Below, piece by piece: positions 4,372 to 58,379 of a stretch of 64,000 nt of DNA. This DNA is from Jiella marina. Lineage in GTDB: Bacteria > Pseudomonadota > Alphaproteobacteria > Rhizobiales > Rhizobiaceae. The notes beneath the pieces are model-generated. The model saw only the letters and a list, made by a program, of their open reading frames with translations. It made no database searches and was not told the origin of the DNA. Both the position numbers and the translations under genes were made by a program. The number at the start of each line of letters is the position of its first letter. The stretch's first letter is position 1. The stretch is taken from positions 124,001 to 188,000 of the forward strand of contig NZ_JAKQZG010000003.1 of the NCBI RefSeq assembly GCF_024359545.1, given 5' to 3'.

Positions 4372-6300
4372 ATGGCGAAGGTTATCGGTATCGACCTTGG
4401 CACGACCAATTCCTGCGTCGCCGTCATGGACGGCAAGAACGCAAAGGTCATCGAAAACGCCGAAGGCGCGCGTACGACGCCCTCGATGGTGGCGTTCACG
4501 GATGATGACGAGCGGCTCGTCGGCCAGCCGGCCAAGCGCCAGGCCGTGACCAATCCGGAAGACACATTGTTTGCCGTGAAGCGCCTGATCGGCCGCCGCT
4601 ACTCCGATCCGACGGTGGAGAAGGACAAGGGCCTCGTTCCCTACAAGATCGTCGAAGGCGGCAACGGCGACGCTTGGGTCGAAGCGTCCGGCGAGAAGTA
4701 TTCTCCGTCGCAGATTTCCGCGATGATCCTTCAGAAGATGAAGGAAACCGCTGAATCCTATCTTGGCGAGAAGGTCGAGAAGGCGGTCATTACCGTTCCC
4801 GCCTACTTCAACGACGCCCAGCGTCAGGCCACCAAGGACGCCGGCAAGATCGCGGGCCTCGAGGTTCTGCGCATCATCAACGAGCCGACCGCGGCGGCAC
4901 TCGCCTACGGTCTCGACAAGTCCGACGGCAAGACCATCGCCGTCTACGACCTTGGCGGCGGCACGTTCGACGTCTCGGTGCTCGAGATTGGCGACGGCGT
5001 CTTCGAGGTGAAGTCGACGAATGGCGACACCTTCCTGGGCGGCGAAGACTTCGACATGCGTCTGGTCGACTACCTCGCCTCGGAGTTCAAGAAGGACCAG
5101 GGCATCGATCTGAAGAACGACAAGCTCGCCCTTCAGCGGCTCAAGGAAGCGGCCGAGAAGGCCAAGATCGAGCTTTCCTCCGCCTCGCAGACCGAGGTGA
5201 ACCTGCCCTTCATCACCGCCGATCAGACCGGCCCGAAGCACCTGAACATCAAGCTGACGCGTTCCAAGTTCGAGTCGCTGGTCGATGAGTTGGTGCAGCG
5301 TACGGTCGGCCCGATGCAGGCTGCCCTCAAGGACGCCGGCATGTCGGCCAACGAGATCGACGAAGTGGTGCTCGTCGGCGGCATGACGCGCATGCCGAAG
5401 GTGCAGGAGACGGTGAAGAAGTTCTTCGGCAAGGAGCCGCACAAGGGCGTTAATCCGGACGAGGTCGTCGCCATGGGCGCTGCGATCCAGGCCGGTGTGC
5501 TCCAGGGCGACGTCAAGGACGTTCTGCTTCTCGACGTGACCCCGCTGTCGCTCGGCATCGAGACGCTCGGTGGCGTGTTCACCCGTCTGATCGACCGCAA
5601 CACGACGATCCCGACCAAGAAGTCTCAGACCTTCTCCACGGCCGAAGACAACCAGAACGCCGTGACCATCCAGGTCTTCCAGGGTGAGCGCGAGATGGCG
5701 GCCGACAACAAGCTGCTCGGCCGGTTCAACCTCGAGGGGATTCCGCCAGCACCGCGCGGCGTGCCGCAGATCGAGGTTACCTTCGACATCGACGCTAACG
5801 GCATCGTCAACGTCTCGGCGAAGGACAAGGGCACCAACAAGGAGCAGCGGATCACGATCCAGGCTTCCGGTGGTCTGTCCGACGACGACATCGAGCAGAT
5901 GGTCAAGGACGCCGAGGCCAACGCCGAGGCCGACAAGAAGCGGCGCGAGGGCGTCGAGGCCAAGAACCAGGCCGAAAGCCTCGTTCACTCGGCCGAGAAG
6001 TCGCTGGCCGACTATGGCGAGAAGGTCTCCGAGGAAGACCGCACTGCCATCCGCGCGGCGATCGACGATCTGAAGGCTGAACTCGAGAAGAGCGACGCCG
6101 ATGCCGATGCCATCAAGGCCAAGAGCGAGACCCTCGCCCAGGCTTCGATGAAGCTCGGTCAGGCCATGTACGAGGCGGCCCAGGCAGAGCAGGGCGCCGA
6201 GGGCGATGGGTCCGAGGAGGCCTCGAGCGAGGCGAAGGACGATGTGGTCGACGCCGATTACGAGGAAGTCGACGACGAGCAGAAGAAGAAGTCTGCCTGA
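4372..6300 (+). CDS. dnaK: molecular chaperone DnaK (Hsp70)
   Basis: A 642-residue Hsp70 chaperone of the cytosol. The N-terminus [14 protein letters not shown] is the phosphate-1 loop of the ATPase domain; further ATPase signatures are [13 protein letters not shown] and the [11 protein letters not shown] segment. The interdomain linker region ([13 protein letters not shown]) is followed by the substrate-binding domain and a charged helical lid ending in an acidic then Lys-rich tail. There is an in-frame ATG six bases upstream at 4366, but the AAGGAG ribosome binding site lies only 3 bases from it and 9 bases from 4372, so 4372 is preferred. A strong terminator follows and there is no dnaJ downstream, so dnaK appears monocistronic here. 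Confidence 0.98.
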
Positions 6301-6329
6301 TCCTTCGGACCTGAAGTCCACGCAACAAG

Positions 6330-6361
6330 AAACCCCGGTGCGGAATGGCACCGGGGTTTTT
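6330..6361 (+). terminator. rho-independent terminator of dnaK
   Basis: The stem AACCCCGGTGC pairs almost perfectly with GCACCGGGGTT around a short GGAATG-type loop and is followed by a TTTTT tract, 30 bp after the dnaK stop. Confidence 0.9.
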
Positions 6362-6428
6362 CATGTCGACCGTCTGGATGATCGAAACCGTTCCTCTGGC
6401 AAAGCGCCGGGGGTGATACGCGGCGGCG

Positions 6429-18735: not shown

Positions 18736-19752
18736 ATGTTTCGATTGCTCGTTCACACGCTCGCCTTTCTCAGCCTCGTCCAGACCGTCTTCGCGGAGGG
18801 CTGGGAGGACCGGATCGCCGACGCGCGGTCACGAGCTCGCGCGATTGAGACGTGGGCAGAAGGGTACGGGTGGGACTACAACAGCGTTGGACGGATGATA
18901 CGCTCCGTCGACGTGTCGGCCATCCGATGCCAGGTCCTTGCCGAGATGATGGGGATCGGCGATATTTCAGAGTATATGAGATATGTCAGTCCGCGGCCGG
19001 ACGAAATTCACAGTCCGCCGGCGGGTTCGATCGATCCGGACGCCTATGACTTCAACCAGATCCTGGGATATTCGTGGAATCTCAACACCTGGGTGATCGC
19101 GGTTGAAGAGTTTCGGTCCATGAACGGCGATCAGCGCGCCGAGGTCTGGGAATTGTCCTGCCACGGACAGCACGGTATTCCAGAAGGACTGCTTGGGCCC
19201 GATTGGAATACGTCGGCGAGCTTTCGCGTTGATGACGGAATTCTATACGTGCTGGGCGATATCGTGCCTGGGTTCTTCAAAGAGTTTGAGGCGGTTCTGT
19301 CGAAACACGAGATCCGTGTCATCAACCTCGGCAGCCGCGGCGGAAGCGTCAAGGACGCGATGCAGGCGGGCGAGCTAATCCGGGAGCGAGGGTTAATCAC
19401 TGCTCTCTACGCCGATTGCGAATCCGCCTGCCCGCTGATTTTCATGGCCGGCGTCCCACCGCGCATCCTTGTTAGTCCGAAACAAGTCTACCGGATCGGT
19501 TTTCACCAAATCTCGGCTAACGGCGTCGCGATCCCGCTCGACAGTCCAGCCTACAGGATCATCGGGGCCTATGTGAAGAGGATGGGGGTGGATGATGGGT
19601 TCGTCCTCAAAGCGATGCGTAGCACTCCGCCGGACGGTATGTATTTTCCCGAGCTCGGGACGCTGTGCGCAGCAGGTCTGATCACCTATACGACCCAGAA
19701 AGTGTCGTATGATTGCCCCATGCCCGCCTCGGAGAACGCGGAAAATCGGTAA
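18736..19752 (+). CDS. secreted ClpP-like (COG3904-type) protein
   Basis: A 338-residue protein with a signal peptide (residues 1-20, ending TVFA). Its C-terminal half has the features of periplasmic ClpP-like proteins: LGSRGGSV at about 198-205 in place of the usual SPGG, the nucleophile-type motif CESAC (Ser230), and IGFHQ (His257). The first 165 residues after the signal match nothing I recognise. The ATG has GAGG six bases upstream. Two more proteins with the same C-x-S-A-C and G-x-HQ motifs lie at 54022-55113 and 55209-56939. Proteolysis in the periplasm is inferred from the fold and has not been shown. Confidence 0.7.
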   Translation: MFRLLVHTLAFLSLVQTVFAEGWEDRIADARSRARAIETWAEGYGWDYNSVGRMIRSVDVSAIRCQVLAEMMGIGDISEYMRYVSPRPDEIHSPPAGSIDPDAYDFNQILGYSWNLNTWVIAVEEFRSMNGDQRAEVWELSCHGQHGIPEGLLGPDWNTSASFRVDDGILYVLGDIVPGFFKEFEAVLSKHEIRVINLGSRGGSVKDAMQAGELIRERGLITALYADCESACPLIFMAGVPPRILVSPKQVYRIGFHQISANGVAIPLDSPAYRIIGAYVKRMGVDDGFVLKAMRSTPPDGMYFPELGTLCAAGLITYTTQKVSYDCPMPASENAENR

Positions 19753-53126: not shown

Positions 53127-53932
53127 TGCAGGGGCTCCGCGCGGGCGAGTTCTTCGCCCGCGCGGAGCCGACTTGCGCCTTCGGTTGATGCCTCGCCTCG
53201 GCAGGCTGCGCCGAAGGCCTTGAAGATCGCGGCCGACGGAGCGTCGGTCTCGGCCCAATATTCCGGGTGCCACTGAACGCCGAGCGCGAAAGCCGGTGCC
53301 CCTTCGACGGAAACCGCCTCGACGATCCCGTCCGGCGCCATCGCCTCGACGCGCAGCCCATCGCCCAACCGGTCGATCGCTTGCCGATGAAGCGAATTGA
53401 CCCGGATCGGCCCCGGCCCGACGATCGTTTCGAGCAGGCCGCCGGGCGTGATCGCGACGTCGTGGCGTGTGGCGTAGCGCTCTCGCTGATCCTCGTGAGT
53501 GATCGCCCGGTGATCCATGCGGCCGGGCAAGTCCTGAACCTCGGTGGCAAGCGTGCCGCCGAAGGCGACGTTCAGTTCCTGATGGCCCCGGCAGACACAA
53601 AGCAGCGGCAGCCCGCGATCGATCGCCTTGCGGATCAGCTGTTCGCTCGCGCTGTCGCGGGCCGGGTCATAGGGCTCGTGGGCCGGGCTCGGGGAAACGC
53701 CGTAGCGATCGGGATGGACGTTGGAGGCCGAGCCCGTGGTGAGCACTCCATCGACGCGATCGAGTACGGCGTCGAGATCGAGTTCGTCCGCCATGGACGG
53801 CACGATCACCGGCGTCGCCCCGGCCACTCTCACCAGCGCTTTCAGATAGGTGTCGGGCGTGGCGTGCCAGCGATATTTCTCGTAGTCGCGAACGTCGGCC
53901 GGCACGGCGACGAGGATGGGGGCAGGGGACAT
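53114..53932 (-). CDS. gamma-glutamyl-gamma-aminobutyrate hydrolase family protein (peptidase C26)
   Basis: A 272-residue class I glutamine-amidotransferase-like hydrolase. The nucleophile Cys lies in PLLCVCRGHQELNV (about residue 114) and the catalytic His in LGVQWHPEYWAE, with Glu two residues later. PuuD-type members cleave gamma-glutamyl-GABA in putrescine breakdown; the ornithine decarboxylase in the window is 8 kb away and not obviously linked. The C-terminal 25 residues extend into a strong hairpin shared with the receptor gene's end. Confidence 0.88.
   Translation of the reverse strand: MSPAPILVAVPADVRDYEKYRWHATPDTYLKALVRVAGATPVIVPSMADELDLDAVLDRVDGVLTTGSASNVHPDRYGVSPSPAHEPYDPARDSASEQLIRKAIDRGLPLLCVCRGHQELNVAFGGTLATEVQDLPGRMDHRAITHEDQRERYATRHDVAITPGGLLETIVGPGPIRVNSLHRQAIDRLGDGLRVEAMAPDGIVEAVSVEGAPAFALGVQWHPEYWAETDAPSAAIFKAFGAACRGEASTEGASRLRAGEELARAEPLHQNS
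53133..53169. terminator. 16-bp perfect hairpin at convergent gene ends
   Basis: GGCTCCGCGCGGGCGA and TCGCCCGCGCGGAGCC form a perfect 16-bp stem with a 5-nt loop, 6 bp after the receptor stop and inside the last codons of the convergent hydrolase gene. There is no T-run. Confidence 0.6.
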
Positions 53933-54021
53933 GGCAGGCCTTCGATGATGTTTCCCGCGATCTAGGCGCTTTCCGCGTCATCGCCAAAGGCGCGGCCTGC
54001 CGGAACGAAGAAATTTTCCGC

Positions 54022-55113
54022 TCAGCCGATGCAGTTCGCTTCGTTCACCGCCAGACGGTAGGCCTGATCGAAATTATCGGCATTGAATGGCGCGACCCAA
54101 TAGCTGCGGCGGCCAAGTTCCAGGCTGCTCTCCATGAAGTAGAGCCCGCCGAAGGCCGCTTCTTCCGGCCGGGGTGTGCCCTCGAAGGGCGCGATGAAGG
54201 ACAGCTTGTCCTCGTCGGTGCGCACGACGACCCGCTCCCTGTCGATGGTCATGCCGAGAAGCTTCAGATGCGACTGGTCTTCGATGACCGTCGCGAGATA
54301 GCCCCACTCGTCGGCCGGCCATTGCGTCATCATGAACTGGCCTCTGCCCCTCAGGCAGAAGACGACCTCTCTCCGGGTCTCGTCGCGCGAGCGGCTGACG
54401 GCGATCAGCCCCTCGCCGTCCATTTCGATCGTCCAGGGCGTGAAGGCGTTCGGGTCCCAGGACACCCGCAGGTCGACCAGTTCGTCTTCCGACAGGATAT
54501 GCATGGTCCTCGGTGCGTTGCGGCCGACCAGCGTCATGAAGCCGGCTTCCGCACCCATGTCGACGACATATTGCAGAATGTCGGCGCTGATGCGCTGGAG
54601 CTCGGAGAAATCGAGCGGGGTATAGGCCTTCTCGGTCGGATCGAAGAGGCCCTCCGAATTGAAGAACTGGTGGACGCCGACCTTCGAGCCTGGGGAGACA
54701 TCGCGCTCGACACCGCCGAGAACGGTGAAGGCGCAGGCCGACAGGCAGTGGCCCGGCTTCTGCTCGTAGAACGTCGTGCCGGGCCGTACTTCGCTTGCCG
54801 CCACGACCGTCTTCAGATTGCTCTTGCGGATCAGACGCCCGAGTTCGACCGCCGCCTTGAGATTGCCGCCGGGCGAATCGAGCACGACCGTGCCGAACGT
54901 CGTGCCGCCGAACTGCGCGGCGAACTTTTCGGCCGTATCAGGCTCGATCACGCCCGTGGCCGCGATCCATTCGCACTGGTCGCAATTGCCGCCATTGCCG
55001 ACGAATTCGAAGGTCATCGGCGCGGCCTGCGTCTTCGTAGCGAGACACAGCCAGACACTCAGCATTGCGAAGAAGACGGACGCACGCATCGAAAAGGGAC
55101 TCCCTCCGGTCAT
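54022..55113 (-). CDS. secreted ClpP-like (COG3904-type) protein
   Basis: A 363-residue protein with a signal peptide (about 1-30, ending TKTQA). The ClpP-like domain shows VVLDSPGGNLKAAVELG (oxyanion strand, SPGG at 80-83), the nucleophile motif CLSAC (Ser125) and VGVHQF (His148). After about residue 215 a C-terminal domain with no family I recognise follows, ending in NEANCIG. An additional CDQCEW pair of Cys is near the start of the mature protein. ATG 55113 has GGAGG six bases upstream. A second paralogue follows on the same strand upstream (55209-56939), only 95 bp away. Confidence 0.8.
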   Translation of the reverse strand: MTGGSPFSMRASVFFAMLSVWLCLATKTQAAPMTFEFVGNGGNCDQCEWIAATGVIEPDTAEKFAAQFGGTTFGTVVLDSPGGNLKAAVELGRLIRKSNLKTVVAASEVRPGTTFYEQKPGHCLSACAFTVLGGVERDVSPGSKVGVHQFFNSEGLFDPTEKAYTPLDFSELQRISADILQYVVDMGAEAGFMTLVGRNAPRTMHILSEDELVDLRVSWDPNAFTPWTIEMDGEGLIAVSRSRDETRREVVFCLRGRGQFMMTQWPADEWGYLATVIEDQSHLKLLGMTIDRERVVVRTDEDKLSFIAPFEGTPRPEEAAFGGLYFMESSLELGRRSYWVAPFNADNFDQAYRLAVNEANCIG

Positions 55114-55208
55114 GCCGGGCCTCCTCGTCATTGTGGATCGGGTCAAAGGGTGTTGGACGTTTGGAACAACCGGCAACCGGCCGTCTCCGGCGGGAACGGC
55201 GAACGCGA

Positions 55209-56939
55209 TCAGCTCCGCCCCAGCCGCCGCAGCTCCTTTCGAGCGTCTTCGTGGCCCTGTTCGGCGGCTTTTCTGTACCAGCGCGCGGCCTCGTCGATGT
55301 TCTTCGTCACGCCGCAACCGCAGGCATACAGCCAGCCGAGATTGTATTGCCCGTGAACATTACCGTTCTCCGCGGCCTTGCGATACCATTCCGCGGCCGT
55401 CCGATCGTCCGCCTTCACGCCCCAGCCATTGCGGTAATGCCGGCCAAGTTCGTTCTGGGCGTTCGCGTGACCCTGATCCGCGGCCTTGCGATACCAGTCC
55501 AAGGCGGCTCGCTGGTCCTTTCTGACGCCCTCACCATTGGCATAGGCCCAGCCGAGATTGTTCTGCGCGTGGACACTGCCGTTGTCGGCGGCGAGGCGGT
55601 ACCACCGGACCGCTTCGCTCTGATCCTTCTTCACGCCCCAGCCATTGGCGAAGAACCGGCCGATCTCGTTCAATGCGTCCGAATCGTTTTGCTCGGCGGC
55701 CTTGCGATACCAGGTGAGGGCGGTCTCGTAGTCCTGTTCCACACCCCGGCCGTTGGCATACATCCAGGCGACGTTGTACTGCGCGGTCGCATTGCCGTTC
55801 TTCGCCGCAAACAGATACCATTTCGCGGCTTCCCTGTCGTTCGTGTCCACGCCCCAGCCGAACTGATAGAACCGGCCCATCTGGTTCTGGGCGTTGACGT
55901 CGCCGAGGGCGGCTGCCTTCTCGAACGCCTCCAGCGCTTTCGTATAATCCTGGGCGACGCCGTCCCCGTCCCGGTAGAGGGTGCCGAGATTGTTGAAGGC
56001 GGCCGCATGATCCTGCTCGGCGGCCTTGTTGTACCATTGGAAGGCTTCGTCCCAGCGTTTCGCCTTGTCGAGCGCGCGGGCGAACTGAAACTGCACCCTC
56101 GCATCCTCGGGCTTCGCGGCCAGCGCCTTCTCGCACTCCTCGACGGCCTGGGCGGGGTCGAGATCGTTCCAGGCGACGCCGACAATACCGGCAGGTTTGG
56201 CGGGATCCTGCGGGTAGGCCGCGAGTTCGTCGCAGGAGCGAACGGCCAAAAGGCTCGCCCCGTCAAGGGTCGAGGCGGGGGCAAGGGCCGGGGGTGGAGA
56301 GACGACCGGATTCGTCGGGCGGGCCAGCGCCACGCGTGGCACGGTCCCGGGCGGGACGATCTCCGTGCCAGGACCGAGCCGGTTGATGGCCAGTCTCTCC
56401 AGTTCCTCTTCGCTGAAGACATGCATGGCGTTGCTGGGCGTCGCCAGCATGATGGCCAGGACGTCCGGTGCGGTGTCCGTCTTCTGCAGAAACCGCACCG
56501 CACGGGAAAGGACGGCCTGGGCGAAGCCGAAGTCGCGCGATTCCGTCGAGGCGACCTGATGGACGCCAAGCTTGCCGCGCGCCTCCCGGTCCTTGCCAGC
56601 AAAGAACAGGAAGGAGCAGGCCGAATAGCAGCGCGCATCCTCCGGAACGACGGTCGAAAAGCCCGCCCGGCGCATATCCTCTGCGATGCCGAGGGCGATG
56701 ATCAGGCTGCCGCCCGGACTGTCGAGCAGGATCGTCCGCGCGTCGGGCGCGGCTTCGGTCGCATCGACGAAGTTGAACCGCTCCAGCGCACCGATCTCGC
56801 CTTGCAGGCGAATGACATCCGGCTGATCGCTGTCGACGACGAAGGACCCGAACTGGCGCGGTGCCGCGCTCGCGGGTGCGATGGCCAGGCAGAAAGCCAG
56901 CGTTACGAAGATACGGGAGATACGGTGCGCCCGGCTCAT
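55209..56939 (-). CDS. secreted ClpP-like protein fused to eight Sel1 repeats
   Basis: A 576-residue protein. A signal peptide (ending APASA, about residue 25) is followed by a ClpP-like domain with LLDSPGGSL (74-77), CYSAC (Ser106) and LGVHQVAST (His127). A Pro/Ala-rich linker (about 205-245) leads to a helical part and then eight Sel1/TPR-like repeats of 36 residues (about 285-576), each of the form A-x-x-WYRKAAxxG-x2-A-x2-NLGxxYxxGxGV. ATG 56939 follows AGGAG by nine bases. Sel1 repeats bind proteins, so the array may recruit substrates or partners to a periplasmic protease-like domain. It lies 95 bp before its paralogue on the same strand. Confidence 0.85.
   Translation of the reverse strand: MSRAHRISRIFVTLAFCLAIAPASAAPRQFGSFVVDSDQPDVIRLQGEIGALERFNFVDATEAAPDARTILLDSPGGSLIIALGIAEDMRRAGFSTVVPEDARCYSACSFLFFAGKDREARGKLGVHQVASTESRDFGFAQAVLSRAVRFLQKTDTAPDVLAIMLATPSNAMHVFSEEELERLAINRLGPGTEIVPPGTVPRVALARPTNPVVSPPPALAPASTLDGASLLAVRSCDELAAYPQDPAKPAGIVGVAWNDLDPAQAVEECEKALAAKPEDARVQFQFARALDKAKRWDEAFQWYNKAAEQDHAAAFNNLGTLYRDGDGVAQDYTKALEAFEKAAALGDVNAQNQMGRFYQFGWGVDTNDREAAKWYLFAAKNGNATAQYNVAWMYANGRGVEQDYETALTWYRKAAEQNDSDALNEIGRFFANGWGVKKDQSEAVRWYRLAADNGSVHAQNNLGWAYANGEGVRKDQRAALDWYRKAADQGHANAQNELGRHYRNGWGVKADDRTAAEWYRKAAENGNVHGQYNLGWLYACGCGVTKNIDEAARWYRKAAEQGHEDARKELRRLGRS

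Positions 56940-58379
<1,440 letters not shown>

Follow-up and report, generated by a model that had tools for sequence, protein, structure and literature searches.

Gene content of the locus

Genes A and B are adjacent on the minus strand of the window, that is, the whole 64,000-nucleotide stretch of Jiella marina DNA analysed here; a third gene of the same family lies on the plus strand. The features are as follows:

55209..56939, minus: gene A, 576 aa (signal peptide, ClpP-like domain and TPR/Sel1 repeats)
56862..56939, minus: gene A signal peptide, residues 1-26, with the cleavage site placed by eye between APASA and AP
56376..56861, minus: gene A ClpP-like domain, ~residues 27-188
56709..56720, minus: gene A S-P-G-G, residues 74-77, equivalent of the oxyanion-hole loop
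56616..56630, minus: gene A C104-Y-S106-A-C108
56559..56561, minus: gene A His127 codon, in G125-V-H127-Q
55227..56159, minus: gene A TPR/Sel1 repeat region, ~residues 261-571
55114..55208, minus: gap between genes A and B, 95 bp
54022..55113, minus: gene B, 363 aa (signal peptide, ClpP-like domain and C-terminal part of unknown type)
55021..55113, minus: gene B signal peptide, residues 1-31, ending KTQA-AP (by eye)
54463..55020, minus: gene B ClpP-like domain, ~residues 32-217
54865..54876, minus: gene B S-P-G-G, residues 80-83
54733..54747, minus: gene B C123-L-S125-A-C127
54670..54672, minus: gene B His148 codon, in G146-V-H148-Q
54025..54462, minus: gene B C-terminal region, residues 218-363, low model confidence
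18736..19752, plus: third family member, 338 aa, with C-E-S-A-C at 19417-19431 and G-F-H-Q

The initial annotation had described two same-strand neighbours with signal peptides and the motifs S-P-G-G, C-x-S-A-C and G-x-H-Q, and all of this was read again in both genes. The Pfam domain search found eight Sel1 stretches in the gene A repeat region, and no family match in the C-terminal region of gene B (~145 residues). A GAGGAGG sequence, read by eye, lies 6 nt upstream of the gene B ATG at 55113. A simple scan of positions 53900-57300 returned no terminator-like site on the minus strand which, together with the short gap, makes co-expression of the two genes plausible.

A fresh tandem duplication was rejected as the origin of the pair: the two domains share 28% identity and fall in different clades of the tree. 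No recurring A-B operon was found among nine other genomes of the genus, and P0002 has no close relative in them (best E 2.4e-14). We also discarded a defence system, the only PADLOC match being a weak one of the repeat region to PtuA (E 7.1e-5), and a phage origin, since PHROG gave a single match (E 3e-8, function unknown) for the gene A ClpP-like domain and nothing for gene B.

Spread of the family

We delimited, in the present analysis, an exported C-x-S-x-C ClpP-like family on the basis of an export signal, a ClpP-like domain, Cys at positions -2 and +2 of the Ser, and a downstream x-x-H. Genes A and B carry all of these. Copies per genome reach up to 15, and the source genome has 15 members, the three of the window included. 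All 15, in rows chosen with the motif in view, keep C-x-S-A-C and G-x-H, and the gene B domain shares 20-33% identity with those of the other 14. A profile with the motif residues masked to X had hits in 87 of the 398 Pseudomonadota genomes sampled and retrieved C-x-S-x-C proteins throughout the class and the phylum. Persistence of the motif at such low identity, together with its recovery by the masked profile, argues for more than chance.

Among the 176 masked-profile matches, 141 carry C-x-S-x-C, 11 carry C-x-x-x-C without the central Ser and 6 have no Cys pair; the remainder are broken or end before the motif (4), or are ClpP or other relatives (14). A contig scan with motif-bearing patterns and a search for relatives with the unmasked query were given no weight in judging the motif. 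The initial annotation, which had called the family small, understated its size, the third copy in the window and the missing catalytic acid described below.

The family is widespread in bacteria and functionally unstudied. Indeed, we found no study of an exported C-x-S-x-C ClpP-like family in the literature, judged by title and the start of the abstract, and the label COG3904, which the initial annotation had used for this type of protein, appeared in one paper of a library of 5.39 million, where a table applies it to a hypothetical Vibrio vulnificus protein. In the plasmid records listed, relatives carry the annotation "hypothetical protein", "PAN domain-containing protein" or "ATP-dependent Clp protease proteolytic subunit". 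No common partner gene emerged across four plasmid neighbourhoods of relatives. On pQBR57, a SEL1-like gene lies ~1.1 kb downstream of the relative. Some other family members carry PAN or bacterial SH3 domains as C-terminal modules.

Export of the gene products

By a crude test, 128 of 140 C-x-S-x-C matches have a hydrophobic segment ahead of the domain, versus 0 of 7 ClpP, and the same test gave export-type N-termini in 6/6 members of the clade that lacks the Cys pair. Export of the gene A and gene B products, as the initial annotation had claimed from their signal peptides, is likely. By sequence, they do not belong with the cytosolic ClpP fed by ClpX or ClpA, since they have signal peptides and the genome holds a separate strong ClpP match (C23:305532-306071, E 3.1e-83).

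ClpP fold and predicted active-site residues

AlphaFold modelled the gene A domain with a pLDDT of 92.6; all structure models were of monomers. In Foldseek searches against the PDB, the best 50 matches listed were all ClpP for both domains, with best E values of 1.8e-7 for gene A and 3.2e-8 for gene B; no family member of solved structure turned up. Coherently, a 29-row family profile matched PDB ClpP chains with E down to 5.1e-7, and the Ser and HQ of ClpP fell under the family Ser and His. The ClpP-like core proposed at the outset is thus well founded. The ClpP family of Pfam, PF00574 (MEROPS S14), gave no match for gene A or gene B up to E 1. Its gathering cut-off of 20.2 bits is passed by one member in the genome (L022, 20.5 bits; 22 in the genome search) and by another, L031, when the whole genome was searched (20.9 bits) but not otherwise (18.9).

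In the alignment of 155 domains (gene A numbering), Ser106 is kept in 144/155 and His127 in 151/154, and the GG loop is nearly invariant (G76 in 155/155, G77 in 153/155). Ser and His are thus conserved in most relatives, and the lack of such conservation, which the initial annotation had named as refuting its reading, did not show up. An intact ClpP-type active site was not recovered: the ClpP Asp column, as aligned, is occupied by M, I or L in 122 of the 143 domains, and the alignment shows an invariant acid nowhere else. A two-residue-gap alignment shifts the Asp position earlier, to SNA in gene A and PRT in gene B, before the Met. An acid stands at most three residues before the Asp column in 98/155 domains, and is absent there in genes A and B. 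As nothing conserved stands in for the catalytic Asp, the most that can remain is a Ser-His dyad.

From HQ to the FS/LS turn there are 48 residues in gene A versus 52 in one ClpP, and the idea of a shortened ring-forming handle was dropped on this comparison. The length of this region does not exclude a double-heptamer ring formed via the handle.

Some relatives lack the Ser, the His or both. One (L093) has CADAC without His and lies beside an intact CLSAC gene; other Ser-less forms are CDTAC in a second domain and CEREC (L241, L249). Such losses imply that some relatives are not enzymes. Loss of Ser with the Cys kept corresponds to four changes on the tree, at least two of them forced by starred branches; this count used 4 representatives of 12 such rows, on a quick tree that leaves 56 of its 107 inner branches open.

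The cysteine pair

Among the 158 family matches with a readable motif, the Cys pair is complete in 152 and wholly missing in 6; a lone Cys occurs in none. In the domain alignment, Cys104 is kept in 152/154 and Cys108 in 153/155, slightly better than the nucleophile Ser, and 118 of 151 domains have no Cys beyond the pair. Both Cys persist where the Ser, and sometimes also the His, is lost. This pattern favours a structural disulfide: the pair looks like a bridge across the nucleophile turn and not a catalytic or metal site. The initial annotation had suggested a strained disulfide or a gate of the active site; conservation speaks for a probable disulfide with a structural role. The clade without Cys retains Ser and His and is also of export type, so the putative disulfide would be dispensable for some exported relatives.

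Comparison with known systems

ClpP is an intracellular compartment protease. The family shares with it the fold, the S-P-G-G oxyanion loop and the alignment positions of Ser and His, and differs from it in being exported, in its extra C-terminal modules, in lacking a conserved Asp, in having no expected ATPase partner outside the cytoplasm and in the two Cys that flank the Ser, absent from the seven ClpP compared.

NfeD1b/1510-N and SppA are envelope serine proteases of the ClpP superfamily that work without an ATPase. They use a Ser-Lys dyad and are not known to have a Cys pair. The family profile matches 1510-N in the PDB weakly (E 0.006); unlike these enzymes, however, the family has His at the base position and no invariant Lys column. 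Gene B scored 15.4 bits against PF25145 (cut-off 40), and gene A was not among the matches. Among the "CS-D-HC" tannases and feruloyl esterases, secreted serine hydrolases are known whose catalytic residues adjoin a disulfide. These have an alpha/beta-hydrolase fold and their disulfide links the neighbours of Ser and His, not positions -2 and +2 of the Ser, so that the resemblance is one of analogy only.

Interpretation

We consider the chances to be about even that genes A and B encode envelope hydrolases with a ClpP fold and a Ser-His active site, operating without an ATPase partner and with a Cys disulfide that braces the nucleophile turn. The proteins would work in the periplasm, and the predicted active site would consist of the Ser-His pair and the S-P-G-G oxyanion loop. 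Since that compartment is not expected to contain an ATP-driven unfoldase, the substrates would probably be peptides that are short or unfolded, or else loops exposed on proteins. The disulfide would form after export and fasten the end of a strand to the beginning of the helix that follows, taking no part in the chemistry. Choice of the target or the site may fall to the C-terminal modules, which vary between members (TPR/Sel1 in A, the orphan region in B, PAN or SH3 in others).

The missing catalytic acid, the members without Ser and/or His and the binding-type C-terminal modules would also suit an exported scaffold, in which a disulfide-braced ClpP fold binds a peptide or partner and Ser and His serve binding or structure only. 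We regard this as rather unlikely, since Ser, His and the GG loop are retained together across very divergent sequences, a pattern not easily explained unless they have a chemical role, and the Ser losses are scattered over the tree. The position of the Cys around the nucleophile, their both-or-neither pattern and the DsbB encoded in the genome could instead point to a reversible switch that opens and closes the active site in response to the Dsb system or to redox stress in the envelope; this appears improbable, the pair being retained without Ser, or without Ser and His, and so mattering where there is no active site to gate.

Still further down, and barely credible, is that the two Cys and the conserved His, brought together within one domain, bind a metal or that a Cys is the nucleophile. 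The co-occurrence pattern led us to reject these roles: His is lost with both Cys kept (L093, the second domain of L237, L239, L241 and L249), the Cys are lost in a clade retaining Ser and His, the His aligns with the catalytic His of ClpP, and the alignment holds no further invariant ligand. An ordinary cytosolic ClpP paralogue wrongly labelled as exported, as the Clp protease annotation of some plasmid relatives might suggest, is just as hard to credit in view of the signal peptides, the hydrophobic segments that none of the seven ClpP had in our test, the separate genomic ClpP and the absence of the catalytic Asp.

Returning to the hydrolase reading, the fold is already known, and what is new is its exported, Cys-bracketed variant. 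Set against ClpP as an intracellular protease, this exported branch stands out as widespread, expanded and highly conserved in its Cys pair. More tentatively, and less likely than not, the whole group could be a large and modular set of exported Ser-His hydrolases built on the ClpP fold. They would form a branch of the ClpP superfamily that works in the envelope without ATP and has expanded to 15 copies in one genome; a disulfide across the nucleophile turn would stabilise or switch the active site, and oxidation in the envelope would be needed for, or control, activity. If active, these proteins would represent a sizeable uncharacterised set of envelope hydrolases.

Two adjoining genes for exported ClpP-like proteins

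The initial annotation had described two adjoining same-strand genes, 95 bp apart, for secreted ClpP-like proteins bearing a C-x-S-A-C motif. Re-reading the sequence confirmed their positions, motifs and spacing:

56939-55209, minus strand, gene A, 576 aa, with SPGG at residues 74-77, CYSAC at 104-108 and GVHQ at 125-128
55113-54022, minus strand, gene B, 363 aa, with SPGG at residues 80-83, CLSAC at 123-127 and GVHQ at 146-149

Both proteins carry, by eye, a Sec-type signal peptide at the N-terminus. Downstream of GVHQ, the gene A protein continues with a Pro-rich linker and then TPR/Sel1 repeats (PF08238, E 3.1e-71). For the C-terminal region of gene B no family match was found in Pfam, the best similarity among the other collected ORFs was weak (the relative L098, E 0.12) and model confidence was low. 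Near its mature N-terminus gene B has an extra C44-x-x-C47 (NCDQC; window 54973-54984), absent from gene A. A simple scan of the minus strand of 53900-57300 detected no terminator-like site, which does not by itself prove one transcript.

The model of the gene A domain had a mean pLDDT of 92.6 and a pTM of 0.85, and all 50 PDB matches listed for it were ClpP (best E 1.8e-7, TM about 0.6). The gene B model was good over the ClpP-like part only, and its 50 listed matches were likewise all ClpP (best E 3.2e-8). Furthermore, the family profile retrieved ClpP among PDB sequences (lowest E 5.1e-7), the Ser and His of the two aligning with each other. The region of the ClpP handle is similarly long in the two, spanning 48 residues in gene A and 52 in one ClpP.

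Family members in the genome

In the window's own genome, which comprises 5.08 Mb in 41 contigs, gene B as query gave 10 matches and the domain of gene A gave 16. Fifteen of the latter were long open frames bearing the domain; the sixteenth (on genome stretch C2, E 0.12) was taken as a chance match. Fifteen members were likewise obtained with a profile at E 1e-8. C-x-S-A-C and G-x-H are present in 15/15, and when the members are aligned, the only columns without variation are G, G-G, C-x-S-A-C and G-x-H. One further member lies in the window; its clade mate in the tree, with support 99, is L028, also from this genome:

18736-19752, plus strand, third family member, with CESAC, GFHQ and the ClpP-like domain in the C-terminal half

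The C-terminal modules vary among the 15 members: repeats resembling those of gene A in L024-L027 (by eye), PAN in L030 and bacterial SH3 in L032 and L034, while no Pfam match was found for L023, L028, L029 and L033. L022 lies 0.3 bit above the Pfam cut-off for CLP_protease, and L031 exceeds it in the genome-wide search only (20.9 bits; 18.9 in the single-protein search). The genome-wide search also located a strong ClpP elsewhere (C23:305532-306071, E 3.1e-83) and a further match on C3 (28.9 bits, L270) that is SppA-like by eye. Ten genomes of the genus hold 15, 7, 9, 2, 1, 5, 5, 15, 4 and 7 copies.

Conservation of the motifs

Conservation of C-x-S-A-C was evaluated with a profile of eleven domains of this genome in which the C-x-S-A-C and G-x-H-x residues were masked. 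At E 0.001, with no more than 12 candidates scored per genome, it found matches in 48 of 289 genomes of the class; for the phylum, at E 1e-6 and with no more than 9 candidates scored, the figure was 87 of 398. The window's own genome is counted in both sets. The masked positions, read afterwards, were C-x-S-x-C in 141 of the 176 matched stretches (including L191, CYSAC). Another 11 had C-x-x-x-C without the central Ser (eight C-Q-G-S-C, plus CDAAC, CDTAC and CEREC), 6 lacked the Cys pair, and in 4 the match ended ahead of the motif or was broken, two of them (L245, L248) showing CLSTC later; the remainder were 7 true ClpP and 7 other relatives. Among the matches at E up to 1e-10, C-x-S-x-C occurred in 127/140. 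A literal G-x-H was found at most 70 residues off in 108 of the 140 C-x-S-x-C matches first counted, and 30 of the other 32 have, by eye, a His at that place with a different residue two before.

We then aligned 155 domains, namely the 140 matches at E up to 1e-10 and the 15 of this genome. In gene A numbering, the Gly loop (G76 155/155, G77 153/155) and the Cys pair (C108 153/155, C104 152/154) are nearly invariant, followed by S74 (148/155) and R118 (142/154). The Ser and His of the proposed active site proved to be conserved (S106 144/155, H127 151/154). At the column aligned with the catalytic Asp of ClpP, 122/143 domains have M, I or L. In the PDB profile alignment, which has a two-residue gap, the ClpP Asp is shifted by two residues towards the N-terminus, opposite the D in a stretch of the TPPD type; an acid occurs within the three residues preceding the Met column in 98/155 domains, and the residues there are SNA in gene A and PRT in gene B. 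Thus, there is no conserved acid, and genes A and B have none at that place.

Role of the Cys pair

Judging from the sequences, the Cys pair looks structural, because both Cys or neither are present and never a single one: exactly one Cys of the pair was found in none of the family matches among the 176 stretches read. No further Cys occurs in the stretch of about 140 residues in 118 of 151 domains read, so in most domains each Cys can pair only with the other; Cys makes up 0.28% of the remainder of that stretch.

A structural role is also indicated because Ser is lost while both Cys stay. On the tree this requires 4 changes, of which starred branches force at least 2 (a quick tree, with 12 Ser-less rows thinned to 4). 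In Jiella endophytica (L093:3898-4731), a degenerate CADAC gene without the His, with an intact CLSAC gene (4707-6401) directly downstream, is by its sequence a natural case in which the active site has gone and both Cys remain. Two ClpP-like domains share one open frame in L214, L237, L241, L245, L247 and L248, and in five of these six the second domain lacks Ser and/or His and has the Cys pair: Ser is lost in L214, His in L237 and both in L241, with the Cys kept, L245 and L248 read CLSTC with the His missing from its place, and L247 keeps Ser and His. L249 (CEREC, no His) adjoins an intact frame as a separate one. In the eight C-Q-G-S-C rows Ser is shifted one place on, and His is present in 7/8. 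These rows, outside the class, are L197, L201, L208, L213, L227, L230, L239 and L243.

Conversely, a Cys-less clade (4/110 tree rows, support 99) retains Ser and His, which also argues for a structural pair. The Cys-less members are L119, L144, L147, L149, L246 and L260 (e.g., VRSGAVELFLAG ... VHSW), three of the six with lipoprotein-like N-termini by eye.

In the gene A domain model, Cys 79 (C104) ends a strand and Cys 83 (C108) opens the helix past the Ser turn; a -2/+2 disulfide at that place could brace the nucleophile turn. DsbB is encoded in this genome.

Plasmid relatives and earlier records

The fold is already known, and relatives are already in plasmid records, annotated, among the records listed (40 of 146 and 30 of 307), as "hypothetical protein", "PAN domain-containing protein" or "ATP-dependent Clp protease proteolytic subunit". 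Gene B relatives occur on 131 Pseudomonas plasmid records, e.g., L264 (pQBR57), L265, L266 (pQBR103); the relative on pQBR57 has a SEL1-like repeat gene downstream of it, at a distance of about 1.1 kb. A partly masked Rhodobacteraceae MAG record (L082) has, within about 5 kb, three family frames on one strand and a fourth on the other. Searches of the open-access literature, judged by title and abstract opening, listed no study recognised as dealing with the family.

Possible function

A crude test found a hydrophobic segment upstream of the domain in 128/140 C-x-S-x-C matches, 6/6 Cys-less members, 5/8 C-Q-G-S-C members and 0/7 ClpP; that these proteins are cytosolic ClpP under a wrong label is highly improbable. 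We judge equally remote a metal site or Cys chemistry at the pair, and a redox switch is unlikely, if less so. A role in binding only deserves somewhat more weight, about one chance in four, because the catalytic acid is missing and degenerate relatives exist.

The reading to which we give an even chance is that of an exported ClpP-fold hydrolase. Its putative active site would be the Ser-His dyad, a disulfide between the two Cys would brace the nucleophile turn, the enzyme would work independently of an ATPase, and the interchangeable C-terminal modules may serve targeting. From the fold, our guess is that its substrates would be peptides.
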